From: an uncultured Chloroflexus sp.
GTDB taxonomy: Bacteria; Chloroflexota; Chloroflexia; Chloroflexales; Chloroflexaceae
NCBI RefSeq assembly: GCF_937129525.1
Contig: NZ_CAKZNK010000020.1
Coordinates: forward strand, 1 to 64,000
Direction of reading: 5' to 3'
DNA length: 64,000 nucleotides
This document shows positions 13,041-21,626 of this stretch, one piece after another. The notes below the pieces were generated by a model that was not told where the DNA came from, ran no database searches, and worked only from the letters and a program-made list of their open reading frames with translations. A program made the position numbers and the translations under genes. Each line of letters opens with the position of its first letter. The first letter of the stretch is position 1.

Positions 13041-14966
13041 TTATACTGCGGTAAGCAGCGCGCGAATGCGTTGAAGTAGTTGTTGCAACGTAAACGGTTT
13101 AGCCAGCAGTGGCATATCTGCTGGAATTGTCGGCTCGATACCGGTGTGCGCTGAAATGAACAGTACCTTCAATTCAGGACGCAGGTCGAGCATCCGTTGA
13201 TACAGCTCTAAGCCGCTTATAACCGGCAACATCAAATCACTGATCAGCAGATGGATCGGGCCAGCATGGTTGGTGGCAAGCGCCAGACCGTGCTGTGGTT
13301 CAATCGCTTCCAGCACAAGATACCCATGGAGGCGTAGCGCGCTGCTGATCAGATGCAAAACTGCCGGTTCGTCTTCAACGACCAGTACCGTTTCGTGTCC
13401 ACCCGGCATGTGACCAATAGCAGGTGTCATTTCCGATTGAGGCTGGTCTTCACCAGGAGCCGGAAAATAGATGGTAAAGGTAGTGCCCTGGCCTGGCTTG
13501 CTCTGCACATCGATATGACCGCGGTGCTGTTTCACTATTCCGAAGACGGTCGATAGACCGAGACCGGTGCCTTTCCCGTGTGGTTTGGTGGTAAAGAAGG
13601 GTTCGAAAATGCGTGGCAAGAGCGCCGGGTCAATCCCGCAGCCGGTGTCGCTGACCTGCAAAGCGGCATAGGTGCCTGGCGCAAGATTGGGTAACAGGTG
13701 GATCTGTTCTGGATCGATCTGAACGGGCGAGGTAGCGATTGTAATTGCGCCTTGCCCTTCAATCGCATCGCGAGCATTGATCACCAGATTGAGCAGGATC
13801 TGTTCAATTTGCCCGGTATCGGCCAGGATTGTCGGCAAAGCCGGATTCAAATCGAGCAGGATCCGAATTCGTTCGCCGATCAGTCGCCGAAGAATCGATC
13901 CAAACTCGCTGATTATCTGATTCAGATGAACTGGTTTCAGCTCAAGCTGTTGTCGGCGACTAAAAGCCAAAATCTGGCGGGTCAGAGCAGTGGCCCGAAT
14001 ACCGGCAGCGCGAATCTGGTCGAAATCGTGGTACAACTCGCTCTCTGGTGGCGCTTCCAGGAGGCCCATTTCGGCGAAGCCAATGATCGGCACGAGCAGA
14101 TTGTTGAGATCGTGCGCAATACCGCTGGCCAGCGCGCCGATTGCCTCGAGTTTCTGTGATTGGAAAAGCTGCTCACTGAGATGTTGTCGTTCCTCTTCCA
14201 TCTGTTTGCGCTCGGTCAGATCGAGATGAGCGCCAAGCATATGGGTGATCCGTCCGTGCTGGTCATAAATAGCCGCAGCTTGCGACCGGATCCAGCGGTA
14301 GCTCCCGTCTTTATGGCGAAACCGATATTCAAGGGCAAAATTTGGCCATGGCTGGTTGAGGTATCGGCGCAAGGTGTCAAGACAACGCTCTCGATCATCT
14401 GGATGGAGTTGCTCTTCCCAGGTGGTGAAAGTGTCGGGCAGCTCATCGGCGGCATACCCGATCTGGGCTTTCCATTCTGGTGAGAAAAAGACCCTGTCGG
14501 TGGCCAGATCCCATTCCCACAACCCAATCTGCGCGGCCTGCACCGCCAGTTGCAACCAGGTTTGGGCATTGGTCAAAAGCGCTTGTTGCAACCGGTTGAC
14601 CTCTAGCGCCAGTCGCCGCGCGCGCAGCAGAATTTCGACTCGAGCCTGCAATTCCGCTTTCTGAATGGGACTGATCGCCAGTTCGTCGATTGTGCGCCAG
14701 AGATGGCGAGTGTACAGATGCACATCACTGCGTCCCGTAACGAGCAGAAAGGGGAGAAAGATGGGATGAGCCGCCGCGCGTCGTTCCTGGATGGCTGCTT
14801 CGTATCGGTCGAGGATGGGGCCATCAAGAATGCAGAGTTGAAAAGGCGACTTCAAATCTGCCTCACTCTGCCCATACGTGACCATGTAGTGTTGCTGCAA
14901 CCACTCGCCGAGTAGCCGCCGGTTAGAGGAATTGGCGAGGAAGAGCAGGATGGTATCTTTTACCAT
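13041..14966 (-). CDS. hybrid PAS sensor histidine kinase with receiver domain
   Basis: The 641-residue soluble kinase has an N-terminal region (1-115) resembling a degenerate receiver domain. A PAS domain follows (about 135-255, QIGLWEWDLATDRVFFSPEW and LEYRFRHKDGSYRWIRSQ). The HisKA helix holds phospho-acceptor His285 in SGIAHDLNNLL. The HATPase domain has NLVINARDA, DTGCGI and GTGLGLSTVFGIV. A C-terminal receiver has the acidic pair in VVEDEP, the phospho-Asp in LLISDLMLP and Lys in LAKPF. No membrane segment is seen, so the signal is cytoplasmic. The start at 14966 has AAGG upstream. It lies 64 bp downstream of the KaiC-like gene, on the same strand, and is probably co-transcribed with it. 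Confidence 0.9.
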   Translation of the reverse strand: MVKDTILLFLANSSNRRLLGEWLQQHYMVTYGQSEADLKSPFQLCILDGPILDRYEAAIQERRAAAHPIFLPFLLVTGRSDVHLYTRHLWRTIDELAISPIQKAELQARVEILLRARRLALEVNRLQQALLTNAQTWLQLAVQAAQIGLWEWDLATDRVFFSPEWKAQIGYAADELPDTFTTWEEQLHPDDRERCLDTLRRYLNQPWPNFALEYRFRHKDGSYRWIRSQAAAIYDQHGRITHMLGAHLDLTERKQMEEERQHLSEQLFQSQKLEAIGALASGIAHDLNNLLVPIIGFAEMGLLEAPPESELYHDFDQIRAAGIRATALTRQILAFSRRQQLELKPVHLNQIISEFGSILRRLIGERIRILLDLNPALPTILADTGQIEQILLNLVINARDAIEGQGAITIATSPVQIDPEQIHLLPNLAPGTYAALQVSDTGCGIDPALLPRIFEPFFTTKPHGKGTGLGLSTVFGIVKQHRGHIDVQSKPGQGTTFTIYFPAPGEDQPQSEMTPAIGHMPGGHETVLVVEDEPAVLHLISSALRLHGYLVLEAIEPQHGLALATNHAGPIHLLISDLMLPVISGLELYQRMLDLRPELKVLFISAHTGIEPTIPADMPLLAKPFTLQQLLQRIRALLTAV

Positions 14967-15030
14967 ATGATGGCCTTGCGGTTGCGAATGTAATAAAATG
15001 TGCTGCCTTGCGCGGAGCTGACAGGTATCG

Positions 15031-16479
15031 TCAGGTTTTATCATTCCATGTAGGAACGCCAATCAGAATACCGCGCAGATTTGTCAGTGGTTTCCCCACT
15101 TTAATGCCATATCGTGAAATAGCAAATTCACGCAACGATTTTTCAAAATCACCGAGACGCTTTTTCAGCACTCCAATAGCTTTGCGCAATTCGCCATTGA
15201 TCTCAAGAAAACGGAGAAAGATAATGTTATCGCCGAGATAACTGGCGCCGATGTCGGTCACCTGGAAATTTCCTACCACATCAGCCGTATCCATGATGAG
15301 AATCACGGTGACGCCGCGACTTTGCAGATACTTGCTGAGCGCATGGAGCTGACTGATCAGGTCTTCGCCTTTCATACAAAGGCGATACCCGGTGACGCTA
15401 TCAATCATCACCACTTTAATCTGCTCTCGATCAATGACATGGCGCGCGTATTGGGCAAACTCGTCGGGGTTGTAGCGCAGCGGTTCAATCTTTTCCACGA
15501 ATAACAGATGTTGACGCTGCATGGCTGTGACCGGAATGTTAACCGCTTCACAGCGTCGCAGCATGATTGAGACCTCTTCTTCAAACGAAAAGACGACCGA
15601 GCGTTCGCCGCGACTGGCGGCTTCCTTGACAAATTGAAATCCGAGCGTCGTTTTACCTACTCCAGAAGGACCGGTAATTATCGTAATGGTACCCCGCTCG
15701 ATGCCACCGTATAGCAGTTCATCCAGTTCAGGCACACCTGCCGGAATCAGGTCAAAGCTATGGTCGGGCGGCAAAGCAGATGGGATCAGGCGCGGGAAAA
15801 CCTGAAGCCCCTGATCGGATAGTCGCATTGCGTGGCGGCCACTCACGAATGCTGACCCTCGCATCTTGCTCACATTGAGATAGCGTCCGCTCTCAGTTAA
15901 TTCGAGATTAATGATTCCATCGGCAATATATTGCAAGTCATCGTCAGGGAAAGCGGCGCTATCTTCCGCCGAGAACACAACTGTCGTGCGCTGTTCGGCC
16001 AGAAAGCGGAGGAACGAAATGACCTGCTTGCGAAACTGAAAGAGATCGGGCGTGAGGTAACGAAACTGAGTAATCGGGTCGAGAAAGACTCGTTCGGGAC
16101 GCAGTTGCTCGATAGTGGTAACGATCTGGCGTGTGAGAGGTTCGCGTTCAACTTCTGCCGGAGAAAAGATGTCGTAGATTTCAGTCTGAGCAAAAAAGTT
16201 GGAGGAAGGGCTGAGATCGAGAATGTGGACGCGGCTGAGGTCAATACCAACTCTGGCCGCATTCCGCCGAATGTTGTTTTCAGCCTCTTCCAGACTGATG
16301 AAGAGTGACACTTCGTTGTTGTTTGCGCCGGCTGCCAGAAAGTGGAGGCCGAGTGTTGTCTTCCCTGTTCCAGGCCCACCGCGAACCAGATACGCGTAAT
16401 GCTGAACCAGACCACCACCGGTAATTTCGTCGAGACCCGGGATTCCGGTGGCGAGCCGGTTCACGGTTGCATTGTCCAT
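15031..16479 (-). CDS. KaiC-like RecA-superfamily ATPase, two domains
   Basis: The 482-residue protein is two tandem KaiC domains. The first has Walker A GGPGTGKT at 34-41 and the catalytic Glu pair in ISLEEAEN near 64-65. The second has GPSGVGKTT at 270-278 and FSFEEEVS. Length and architecture match the circadian-clock KaiC group or its non-clock relatives. No kaiA or kaiB is in the window. The start at 16479 has AGGAG 6 nt upstream; a longer frame to 16545 is not supported. Downstream lies a hybrid histidine kinase, an arrangement suggesting that the ATPase feeds a two-component output. Clock function is unproven. Confidence 0.88.
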   Translation of the reverse strand: MDNATVNRLATGIPGLDEITGGGLVQHYAYLVRGGPGTGKTTLGLHFLAAGANNNEVSLFISLEEAENNIRRNAARVGIDLSRVHILDLSPSSNFFAQTEIYDIFSPAEVEREPLTRQIVTTIEQLRPERVFLDPITQFRYLTPDLFQFRKQVISFLRFLAEQRTTVVFSAEDSAAFPDDDLQYIADGIINLELTESGRYLNVSKMRGSAFVSGRHAMRLSDQGLQVFPRLIPSALPPDHSFDLIPAGVPELDELLYGGIERGTITIITGPSGVGKTTLGFQFVKEAASRGERSVVFSFEEEVSIMLRRCEAVNIPVTAMQRQHLLFVEKIEPLRYNPDEFAQYARHVIDREQIKVVMIDSVTGYRLCMKGEDLISQLHALSKYLQSRGVTVILIMDTADVVGNFQVTDIGASYLGDNIIFLRFLEINGELRKAIGVLKKRLGDFEKSLREFAISRYGIKVGKPLTNLRGILIGVPTWNDKT

Positions 16480-16647
16480 GCGGTTCTCCTGTGCCCATAT
16501 TAGCGATGCTGAGAGTATCCTAACGACCAGACCGAAAAGCGTCAAGAGGGAGGGCGATATTTGAGCGATCAGATCTGGTCAAGCGATGATCCCGCACCAT
16601 CTGGTTGGTAACCGCTTGTCTGAAGGAAAATCGTTCTGGTAATGCAA

Positions 16648-16700: not shown

Positions 16701-17096
16701 TTACCGCAAGCAAGGGCGAAATTTATAGCCGTACACCAACACGCCGTCTTCGCCAGTATCCATCAGGCGGCGTGTAACCATTTCGACGGGCATCCCAATC
16801 GCGAGATCGGCTTCGTCACAATCGGTCAACTGAGCCGTCACCAGCGGCCCCTCTGCCAGCCGCACCAGCGCAACCGGGTAGATGCCGAGACTGGCAAAAC
16901 CGGCTGGCGCCTGTCGGATAACGCTGAAACTGTAAATTTCGCCAAGACCGCTAAGCTGATAAGGTTCCCAGTCATTGGGATCTTCATCCAGCGCAGGGGG
17001 GCGGACCGGGAAGCGCACTTCGCCGGTGTGGCGATGGCGCTGACCTTCGAGACGATAACGAACAGTTCGTTCGCGCCAGTGTCGCGCAATGCTCAT
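16701..17096 (-). CDS. DUF35 OB-fold protein, zinc ribbon degenerate
   Basis: DUF35 proteins bind CoA thioesters through an OB fold and join thiolase-type enzymes; in archaea one bridges acetoacetyl-CoA thiolase and HMG-CoA synthase. The 131-residue product aligns by eye to this family: RYRLEG at 13-18, FPVRPP at 29-34 and an OB-fold core (GEIYSFSVI, LVRLAEGPLVTAQL, IGMPVEMV). The N-terminal ribbon region, which normally holds four cysteines, has none; the only cysteines are Cys93 and Cys129. His21 and His23 are the only likely metal ligands left there. Its ATG overlaps the upstream stop as ATGA, so translation is coupled to the Yip1-like gene. Confidence 0.85.
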   Translation of the reverse strand: MSIARHWRERTVRYRLEGQRHRHTGEVRFPVRPPALDEDPNDWEPYQLSGLGEIYSFSVIRQAPAGFASLGIYPVALVRLAEGPLVTAQLTDCDEADLAIGMPVEMVTRRLMDTGEDGVLVYGYKFRPCLR

Positions 17097-17725
17097 GGTG
17101 CAAAACCTCCGCCAAGCGCAATAGCAGCAAGTGCGAGTATTCCTGAAAGCAAGCAAACCGCTATAATGCTGATCACTGCCAGAATGATGGCAATATAGAG
17201 CGCTTTATTCGCGGGCAAATTCATGCCCGACTGAATTGCCAGATAGGTCAAATAGACGCCGTACAAGGCAAGACCCAGTGCGATGATCGGGCCGACAAAC
17301 GGAATGACATTCACAATGAATTGCCCGACAGACAATGGCGACGAGAAGAGAGAGAGACCCCACGCCAGCTCGCCAAAGCTGCCGGTGCCGCCGAACGCGC
17401 GCCCGAGCAAATAGATGAATCCCCAGACAACCAGCGAACCGATGATGGTGCCGAAAACACCGCCAAAGATTTGGCTGATTGGATTGGTTTGTTGGGCAAT
17501 TGTTTGCTCGATTGTTGCGCTATCGAAACCGAGTTGTTCCAAACTAGCGCGCATCTCATTCATCTGAAGCGGGATTGTCAGCACGTTGATGATACCATTG
17601 ATAATACTGGCAATCACAGCATAGATCAGCGCCCACACCAGGTTGTCGCGCTCGTGGCGCTCGAACGTTTGTACCGACGGTTGCGTAAGGACAGCAATAC
17701 TGCCATTGACCATTTCCTGGATCAC
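17093..17725 (-). CDS. Yip1-family membrane protein
   Basis: The 210-residue product has a short cytoplasmic N-terminus and about five membrane segments (near 30-55, 88-110, 118-145, 145-165 and 178-202), with the spacing and Gly/Pro-rich turns of the Yip1 domain. Bacterial Yip1-like proteins have no settled function. It lies between the thiolase-like gene (78 bp upstream) and the DUF35 gene, which it overlaps by 4 bp. That fixed placement inside an HMG-CoA synthase operon hints that it might attach the soluble complex to the membrane, but this is my inference. Confidence 0.82.
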   Translation of the reverse strand: MIQEMVNGSIAVLTQPSVQTFERHERDNLVWALIYAVIASIINGIINVLTIPLQMNEMRASLEQLGFDSATIEQTIAQQTNPISQIFGGVFGTIIGSLVVWGFIYLLGRAFGGTGSFGELAWGLSLFSSPLSVGQFIVNVIPFVGPIIALGLALYGVYLTYLAIQSGMNLPANKALYIAIILAVISIIAVCLLSGILALAAIALGGGFAP

Positions 17726-17803: not shown

Positions 17804-18970
17804 TTACGACTCTCGTAGCAAGACATGGCTGACCGCTGTCGCGCCGATACCGCCAAGTGATTGGGCCAGGCCGACACGGGCATGAGCAACCTGGGTAGCG
17901 CCGGCAGTATGGCTCAACTGGCGCGCGATCTCGATCACCTGATAGACGCCGCTGGCTCCACCCACATCGCCGCGCGCCTTGTAGCCGCCTGCGGTGGCGA
18001 TAGGGGTTTTCCCGGTGGGTGCGATCGCGCCTTCAGCGGCGTGACGGGGGGCAGTGCCCGGCTCGTAGCAGCCAATCGCCTCGAGCGCAAGCGTGGCGGC
18101 AATGCCATGCGGATCGGTCAATTCCCAGACATGAACATCACCAACACCGAGATGGGCGCGCCCCAGCGCAATGTGCGCGCTGGCGCGAGCGGCGTTGAGG
18201 TCGAGCGGGTTGCGTCGGCGATGCAGCGCTGGCTGATCGGTTGCCACTGCCGAGCCGGCAACGCGAATGCGCGGGCCGGTGAATTCGCGGGCCAACTGTT
18301 CGCTAGCGATCAGCAACGCGGCAGCGCCGTCGGCCAGCGTGCTGCAATCGAGCAGGTTGAGCGGGGAAGCTACCATAGCAGCTTTCCGATACCTGGCAGC
18401 GTCAATTGCAAACCGGTAGAGCGCGAGCGGATTTTTTGCCCCGTTGGCGTGGGCATTAATTGGGAAAGGCGCGAAGGCGTCGGCGCTATAGCCGTATTCG
18501 TGCATGTAGCGCCGCATGAGCATCGCCCATTGGGCTGTCAGGGTAACGCCATGGAACGCTTCTTCGTTGCTGTCACTGGCCATTGCCTGCGCTGCTTCAA
18601 TTGCGTCTTCAAGCTGATCGGTGACCTTTTCGACTCCGATGACCAGCGCAAGCGGTAAACCATTCTGCACGGCCTGTACGGCCTGATAGATCGCCAGTCC
18701 ACCACTGGCGCCGGCTGCTTCGATGCGGAAGGCCGGTACCGAGGAGGCCAGCCCCAATACGCCGGCCAGATACGCGCCAAGCTGACTCTGCCCGTACAGC
18801 TCTTCGCTAAAGGCACTACCCACATAGAGCGCGCCGATCTGGTGGGGCGCAATTCCCGGCGCGCTGGCCAGCGCTGCGCGCGCCGCTTCGCTGGCCAGAT
18901 CGGCCAGACTGCGCTGGTAATGCTCGCCAACCGGGGTAGCGCCCATTCCGATAATGTAGACGTTGGTCAT
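17804..18970 (-). CDS. thiolase-fold protein lacking catalytic residues
   Basis: The 388-residue protein is clearly of the archaeal/SCP2-type thiolase family: YIIGMGATPVGEH at the start, the RRYMHEYGYSADAFAPFPIN segment, PLNLLDCSTLADGAAALLIAS, and GGIGATAVSHVL near the end. Yet every catalytic position I can place is changed. The nucleophilic Cys of the AACASGG motif is Gly87 (codon GGC at 18712-18710). The HDAF/HDCF position reads TDPH (285-288). GHP reads GDV (334-336). The HN before GGIG reads QS (370-371). It should therefore not make acetoacetyl-CoA by the normal mechanism. It could be a structural partner of HMG-CoA synthase or a thiolase-fold aldolase of the DUF35-dependent type. GAGGAG precedes the ATG. 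HMG-CoA synthase ends 53 bp upstream. Confidence 0.88.
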   Translation of the reverse strand: MTNVYIIGMGATPVGEHYQRSLADLASEAARAALASAPGIAPHQIGALYVGSAFSEELYGQSQLGAYLAGVLGLASSVPAFRIEAAGASGGLAIYQAVQAVQNGLPLALVIGVEKVTDQLEDAIEAAQAMASDSNEEAFHGVTLTAQWAMLMRRYMHEYGYSADAFAPFPINAHANGAKNPLALYRFAIDAARYRKAAMVASPLNLLDCSTLADGAAALLIASEQLAREFTGPRIRVAGSAVATDQPALHRRRNPLDLNAARASAHIALGRAHLGVGDVHVWELTDPHGIAATLALEAIGCYEPGTAPRHAAEGAIAPTGKTPIATAGGYKARGDVGGASGVYQVIEIARQLSHTAGATQVAHARVGLAQSLGGIGATAVSHVLLRES

Positions 18971-20303: not shown

Positions 20304-21626
20304 TTAGTTCTTCATGGGATTGCCAACGGTACGCCGGCCTTCCAGCTCGGCGATAATCTCTTCGGCGCGAGCTGGCTTGATATTGCGTTCGGCCACCATA
20401 CGGCGGGCTACTTCATCAACCAGAGTGCCGCTAGCGCCAGCGGCTAAGGCAATCTGGCGGGCATGCAGGCTCATATGACCTTGCTGGATACCTTCACAGG
20501 CCAGCGCTCGCATCGCGGCAAGATTGTTGGCCAGACCAGCGGCGACGCACACCTCAGCCAGTTCACTGGCGCTGCGCACACCCAGCAACTTCAGAGCGGC
20601 CTGCGCAGTTGGATGAACTTTGGTCGCGCCGCCAACAATCCCTACAGCCAGCGGCATTTCCAGGGTACCGACTAGATTCCCGTGCTCGTCACGCTCCCAA
20701 TGCGAGAGCGAAGTGTAGCGACCGTTACGGCTGGCGTAAGCGTGAGCGCCGGCCTCAACGGCTCGCCAGTCATTGCCGGTAGCGACCAGCACCGGGTCAA
20801 TCCCATTCATAATGCCTTTGTTGTGAGTAGCTGCCCGGTAAGGATCGACTGCCGCGAAGGCGTATGCCCAAAGAATACCTTCCACGACCTCTTCACCGCT
20901 CAGCCCGTCGCGCGCCAGTGAAGCTGCCGGCACCACGCAACGAGCGCGCGCCAACCGGCGATCGGTCAGGTTCGAGAGAATGCGCAGGTAGACCCGACCG
21001 CCGGTCATCTCGGCCAGCAAGGGGGCAACCGCTTCAGCCATCGTATTGACGGCGTTAGCGCCCATTGCATCGCGACAGTCAATGATCAAATGCACAACCA
21101 GCATCGGCCCCATTGGACTGGTAGGGAAGAACCGCACTTCAACATCGCGCGCGCCGCCGCCGAGCGTCACCAATGAGCGGCTTTGCCCATTCGCCAGGGC
21201 CAGAATCTCGGCTTTGCGCGACAGTATCGTCTCGCGAGCCTGATCGGGGTCGGCAACATTGACCAGTTGCACTTGCCCGATCATTAGCGGCTCGGTGCTG
21301 CTCGTCTCGAACCCACCACCATCGCGCGCCAGACGCGCAGCATAGCTCGCGCCGGCTACGATCGATGGCTCTTCGACCACCATCGGAATGAGGTAGTCGC
21401 GACCATTGATGCGAAAGTTGGTTGCAATACCCAGCGGCAGGTTATAAGTGCCAACCACATTCTCAATCATTTTATCGGCGCGCTCAAGCGTGAGGGCACC
21501 CCCACTGCCACCGTGGAGCGCGCGCAAATCTTCATCAACTAAACCATCAAACGACCTGACCATTTGCAGGCGCTCAAATGGGTTAAGCTGGTAAAATCCT
21601 TGCAGGCGAGAGTTCTTGGTCCCCAT
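20304..21626 (-). CDS. mvaA: hydroxymethylglutaryl-CoA reductase, class II
   Basis: This reduces HMG-CoA to mevalonate with NAD(P)H. The 440-residue product carries the class II bacterial signature: [17 protein letters not shown] near residue 55 with the catalytic Glu, [15 protein letters not shown] around 187, the Lys of [11 protein letters not shown] around 270, and [15 protein letters not shown] near 387 with the catalytic His. There is no membrane anchor. GAAGGAGGAG lies upstream of the ATG. It is encoded just upstream of the HMG-CoA synthase operon but separated from it by a strong terminator and a 230-bp gap, so it is probably a separate unit. Together they make mevalonate for isoprenoids including carotenoids. 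Confidence 0.95.

Follow-up and report, generated by a model that had tools for sequence, protein, structure and literature searches.

Background

For the archaeal complex of Methanothermococcus thermolithotrophicus (PDB 6ESQ/6ET9), a DUF35 protein was described as holding a thiolase and HMG-CoA synthase together, with CoA located at the interface of all three proteins (PMC6392133, PMC12329534). The CoA site was common to the thiolase and the synthase, so that acetoacetyl-CoA was handed over without release. A three-subunit architecture that retained one dead subunit has also been described for the Friedel-Crafts acylase PhlACB (5M3K), where the Cys and Glu of the HMGCS-like PhlA were lost, yet the complex still required this subunit (PMC6392133). 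Moreover, several thiolase-fold proteins with a small partner were related to these systems. Namely, the steroid aldolases Ltp2 and Sal had the thiolase fold and a DUF35 partner, and Sal carried Gly at the position of the Cys (PMC12329534), and the haloarchaeal beta-ketothiolase BktB/PhaA had its Cys replaced and needed a second small (OB-fold) subunit (PMC7137286).

The gene cluster in Chloroflexus

The window, that is, the whole stretch of 64,000 nucleotides analysed from an uncultured Chloroflexus sp., contained the same three gene families as the archaeal complex side by side. The clustered genes for HMGCS, the thiolase-fold protein (THL) and DUF35 were part of the order HMGR–HMGCS–thiolase–Yip1–DUF35:

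20304..21626, minus strand: HMG-CoA reductase (HMGR), first gene of the cluster; PF00368, TIGR00532
19024..20070, minus strand: archaeal-type HMG-CoA synthase (HMGCS); TIGR00748 at 500 bits with a cut-off of 353; catalytic Glu81, Cys113 and His236 intact
17804..18970, minus strand: Cys-less thiolase-fold protein (THL), 388 aa; G87, W148, T285-D286-P287-H288, G334-D335-V336, Q370-S371
17093..17725, minus strand: Yip1-family membrane protein between the THL and DUF35 genes; 4-nt overlap with the DUF35 start
16701..17096, minus strand: DUF35/OB-fold protein; PF01796; closest solved structure 6esq chain E

All five genes were co-directional with short gaps, and AGGAG-like sites preceded HMGR, HMGCS, THL and Yip1. 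Similar to the DUF35 protein, HMGCS had its best structural match in a chain of 6ESQ, and its Glu, Cys and His were kept in every complete copy that we collected.

The Yip1 gene was found at the THL/DUF35 junction in Chloroflexus, Oscillochloris and Chloroploca (several Chloroflexaceae and Oscillochloridaceae) and was absent from Roseiflexus and Herpetosiphon-type genomes. It is possible that its product is a membrane link for an HMGCS/THL/DUF35 complex. Directly downstream of the DUF35 gene (13041-16545, minus strand) there were genes for a PAS-type sensor kinase with a receiver domain and for a KaiC-like double ATPase, both named by reading the translations only.

Altered catalytic residues

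The THL reading frame was intact, with an ATG start and an AGGAG upstream, and Pfam recognized both Thiolase_N and Thiolase_C_1 in its product. The AlphaFold model reached a pLDDT of 93.3 (49-sequence alignment), and Foldseek superposed it on the archaeal complex's thiolase chain (TM-score 0.95, 1.4 A, 35% identity). These data agreed with the first-pass annotation, made from the sequence alone, which had described a full-length thiolase scaffold kept inside an operon. Judging from the model, the scaffold was intact and only the catalytic residues were gone. The match to the NCBIfam equivalog NF053570 (282.6 bits) was below the 600-bit cut-off, as was that of a Cys-type Chloroflexota copy (421 bits).

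The residues were mapped by alignment to the archaeal thiolases 7yvy and 6esq, and the following sites differed:

18710..18712, minus strand: codon GGC for Gly87, in place of the nucleophilic Cys
18527..18529, minus strand: codon for Trp148; the Cys-type relatives all have Asn, the non-redundant Chloroflexales Trp (45/45) and other Cys-less forms mostly Ala or Gly
18107..18118, minus strand: TDPH (285-288), replacing HDAF; no variation at His288 within the order
17963..17971, minus strand: GDV (334-336), replacing GHP; position 335 is Asp in 42/45 and Asn in 3/45 of the order

The Asp of HDxF and the glycines around the motifs were retained. The three replacements reported by the first-pass annotation (Cys87 to Gly, HDAF to TDPH, GHP to GDV) were thus reproduced, and every catalytic motif was altered in the comparison with archaeal acetoacetyl-CoA thiolases that it had proposed. 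It had also read the last motif as HN changed to QS. Here Ser371 was real, but Cys-type relatives had QN (7yvy and Chloroflexota) or AN (6esq) rather than HN, so that Q370 was retained and just the Asn was replaced by Ser.

In contrast to the archaeal complex, the thiolase Cys and both His were gone at this locus, and the zinc-ligand Cys of DUF35 were gone in Chloroflexales. Channelling could not work here as it does in archaea. The closest solved structure by sequence, the Pyrococcus furiosus thiolase PFC_04095 (7YVY, 256 bits), differed from THL in keeping C, HDAF, GHP and QN. PhlACB looked like a mirror image: its thiolase-like PhlC was active and PhlA was dead, whereas in Chloroflexus the synthase residues were intact and the thiolase was apparently dead. 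The active Cys and His of a PhlACB-type thiolase-like subunit were missing from THL (Gly87, Asp335). BktB/PhaA kept a Ser-His-His set, unlike THL with Gly87, Thr285 and Asp335. Ltp2 and Sal required YD[HC][FY], whereas THL had T/S-D-P-H with no Tyr in the first position, and its neighbourhood was that of mevalonate and not of steroid metabolism; an Ltp2/Sal-type aldolase was therefore rejected by the absence of the motif Tyr. By descent THL belonged to the archaeal-type HMGCS/thiolase/DUF35 system, but it lacked the catalytic features by which a thiolase is defined.

Fixation in Chloroflexales

Relatives of THL were detected at E<1e-20 in 74/82 genomes of the order Chloroflexales, and the altered pocket was fixed in about 70 orthologues. 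Every full-length orthologue located in an HMGCS cluster had altered motifs. Among 45 non-redundant members, position 87 was Gly in 43 (with one Thr and one gap), both Asp286 and His288 were invariant (45/45 each), and position 285 was Thr or Ser in 41 (T, S, C and H were seen). Chance would fall far short of producing such uniform replacements. The first-pass annotation had asked if Gly87, GDV and QS were fixed in other Chloroflexota. Within the order this was nearly so for Gly87 and Asp335 and did not hold for QS, which was mostly QC.

It was hardly credible that the changes came from recent decay, a pseudogene or an assembly error in this genome. Other, independent genomes of the order had the same motifs, among them Chloroflexus islandicus and genomes of the same genus on a single contig, and we found no point in favour of such an origin. 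The first-pass annotation had named homologues in close relatives with Cys and GHP as a sign of error or recent decay; a search for them in the order's HMGCS-linked orthologues gave none. THL was under purifying selection, with a median dN/dS within the genus of 0.053 in comparison to 0.029 for HMGCS.

The position of residue 371 raised the possibility that THL was still a thiolase with another nucleophile, either Ser/Cys371 or the nearby Ser89. By motif, residue 371 aligned with the Cys of the classical thiolase CxG, and it was Cys in 32/45 Chloroflexales. However, Ser, Thr and Val also occurred at this position, indicating that no particular residue was required, and the loss of both catalytic His positions left no residue to activate a nucleophile. 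Thus, a nucleophile relocated to 371 was rejected for want of conservation, and we regard continued thiolase activity by such a route as very improbable.

Loss of the Cys across Chloroflexota

The set of 184 distinct THLs came from Chloroflexota, plus a few MAGs that carried the label Myxococcales. Cys-type proteins accounted for 56 of them and always had HDAF, GHP and Q[NS]; 31 adjoined HMGCS, and 25 were free-standing or at contig edges. The other 128 were Cys-less, and 124 of these adjoined HMGCS. For two of the remaining four, this was just because HMGCS was on another contig or past the contig end. When 400 Chloroflexota genomes were sampled evenly, 91 encoded archaeal-type HMGCS, and all 91 also encoded a THL. 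The THL was Cys-less in 39/39 of the HMGCS genomes inside the order, while the 52 outside it had 15 Cys-type and 37 Cys-less proteins (25 Gly, 8 Asp, 3 Glu and 1 Gln). Thus, HMGCS was paired with a Cys-less thiolase in 76/91 HMGCS genomes of the sample.

In the maximum-likelihood tree all Cys-less THLs formed one clade (bootstrap 98, SH-aLRT 96) with Chloroflexales nested inside it (100/100). For this tree we removed the motif columns and excluded three long rows (L206, L075 and L076); the outgroup 6esq was a long branch. Since the Cys-less proteins were monophyletic even with the motif columns removed, the Cys was lost once. Several independent losses, suggested by the varied substituents, were rejected because a single change in the tree separated Cys from non-Cys (residue changes overall numbered at least 7), and a larger quick tree gave the same single change. 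The loss was therefore single and ancient; it is older than the order and extends over much of Chloroflexota.

Across the Cys-less clade the nucleophile position was occupied by G, D, E, N or Q and the His position of GHP by F, N, H, D or Y. This variety looked like relaxed constraint after the loss. Three Asp-type THLs still kept HD and GHP; thus, loss of the Cys can come before loss of the catalytic histidines. We found no description of this thiolase Cys loss in the open-access literature searched.

In addition, four fen MAGs labelled Myxococcales carried a Cys-type HMGCS-THL-DUF35 cluster and were nested among Chloroflexota in the tree, which could represent either horizontal transfer or mis-binning.

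Evolutionary rates

The slowest positions of the Cys clade included the catalytic ones (about 2nd-23rd percentile, the nucleophile at the 10th). For the Cys-less forms outside the order, the rates at positions 87, 287, 288 and 335 ranked at percentiles 75, 89, 54 and 37, respectively, whereas the scaffold residues stayed fixed; 43 positions, including H174, N176, N180, K331 and R333, were conserved in all three groups (Cys clade, Cys-less forms outside the order and Chloroflexales). The median ratio of THL to HMGCS distances rose from 1.03 for the Cys forms to 1.58 for Cys-less proteins outside Chloroflexales and 1.59 for those within. At the same time, the distances of the two proteins co-varied (Mantel r 0.79, 0/999 permutations). 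Such a pattern of rates is the signature expected of a protein that no longer catalyses but on which a partner continues to depend.

Probable role as a pseudoenzyme in an HMGCS complex

We consider it probable, at roughly two chances in three, that THL is a pseudoenzyme, a former acetoacetyl-CoA thiolase subunit kept as a structural part of an HMGCS/thiolase/DUF35 complex. We infer that the three proteins form a complex in which thiolase activity is zero and the role of THL is structural. The thiolase chemistry would have been lost and the protein retained since HMGCS and DUF35 need it as a structural wall; in the HMGCS complex, THL would complete the assembly and, probably, the CoA site that the subunits share. 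The first-pass annotation had proposed either a retained scaffold or new chemistry, and the evidence favoured the scaffold. A slight argument against a tight complex came from some Anaerolineae-type genomes with HMGCS and THL 1-2 kb apart or with DUF35 out of the cluster.

The spacing was seen in five members of one Anaerolineae-type family, where the Cys-less THL was 1-2 kb from HMGCS and DUF35 was often outside the cluster. We read this as loosening of the operon after loss of the Cys. Absence of DUF35 from some Cys-less genomes was rejected: the gene was relocated in 21/22, and the zinc Cys were kept in 20/20 of the proteins fetched.

An objection to a pure scaffold was that the Chloroflexales pocket was not drifting. 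Residues fixed in Chloroflexales and absent from the Cys clade were Ala53 (Met), Gly87 (Cys), Trp148 (Asn), Tyr185, His288 (Phe), Asp335 (His) and the conservative Leu348, three of which were catalytic-motif positions. His288 and Trp148 were invariant and Asp335 and Gly87 nearly so, and such fixity exceeds the needs of a pure scaffold unless the new residues pack the core. Moreover, the four Cys that serve as zinc ligands in the 6esq DUF35 were replaced in Chloroflexales (RCKTCG..VCPDC in 6esq, RHRHTG..PPALDED here), whereas other Chloroflexota DUF35s kept C-x2-C/C-x2-C in almost all cases. The pocket was thus re-fixed in this order (M53A, C87G, N148W, F288H, H335D). We read this re-fixation, which went along with the loss of the zinc site of DUF35, as a refilling or plugging of the former acyl pocket, with Trp148 presumably packed into the vacated space.

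On the other hand, the same residues could mean that the protein was neo-functionalised, and that Gly87, Trp148, Thr/Ser285, His288 and Asp335 run another CoA-ester reaction inside the HMGCS complex, e.g., decarboxylation, hydrolysis or an aldol-type step. The lineage-specific fixed residues were few and included catalytic-motif positions (A53, W148, G87, H288 and D335), and active Cys-less DUF35-linked thiolase-fold enzymes are known, such as Sal with its Gly (PMC12329534). However, the Cys-less clade had no common set of replacements, the neighbourhood belonged to the mevalonate pathway only and no known dyad fitted. We consider new chemistry unlikely and keep it in consideration because the Chloroflexales pocket is conserved. 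It is equally doubtful that the lost thiolase site was rebuilt in this order as a distinct conserved CoA-ester site (Gly87/Trp148/His288/Asp335) that performs or gates a non-thiolase step in the complex.

The dead thiolase might also bind CoA or acetoacetyl-CoA and regulate or gate HMGCS. The CoA site shared at the thiolase/HMGCS/DUF35 interface of the archaeal complex (PMC6392133, PMC12329534) and the 43 positions conserved in all three groups were consistent with such sensing. However, present evidence fitted the scaffold equally well, and we regard a sensing subunit as a rather improbable alternative.

Acetoacetyl-CoA supply and the isoprenoid route

The Chloroflexus genome encoded three canonical thiolases outside the cluster with C, NEAF, GHP and CxGGG, bearing out the earlier suggestion that the real thiolase was encoded elsewhere. 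Similarly, a separate free-standing THL with Cys, HDAF and GHP was present in 8/8 of the Cys-less relatives checked. Judging by these motifs, canonical thiolases elsewhere in the genome can supply acetoacetyl-CoA. If THL is a pseudoenzyme, the substrate would be made by such stand-alone enzymes and diffuse in from outside, and direct thiolase-to-synthase channelling would therefore have been given up.

It has previously been reported that the class Chloroflexi lacked homologues of the DXP pathway (PMC3857490), and a survey listed two Chloroflexi representatives, Chloroflexus aurantiacus J-10-fl among them, that relied solely on the mevalonate pathway (PMC3847144). The genome studied here encoded mevalonate kinase, and DXR had no match in it at 99.97% completeness; therefore, mevalonate appeared to be the only isoprenoid route. 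A large bacterial lineage with this apparent sole route has lost the thiolase half and kept the protein. This offers a natural experiment on the question whether structure, rather than chemistry, is what makes the thiolase subunit necessary. The THL genes match thiolase families in databases and should not be counted as the first enzyme of the mevalonate pathway in Chloroflexota.

A few Chloroflexaceae genomes also had a second, free-standing thiolase of a Thr type (L075 and L076), with EAATATG at the nucleophile motif, HDAF and GHP kept and a long branch near the Cys-less clade.
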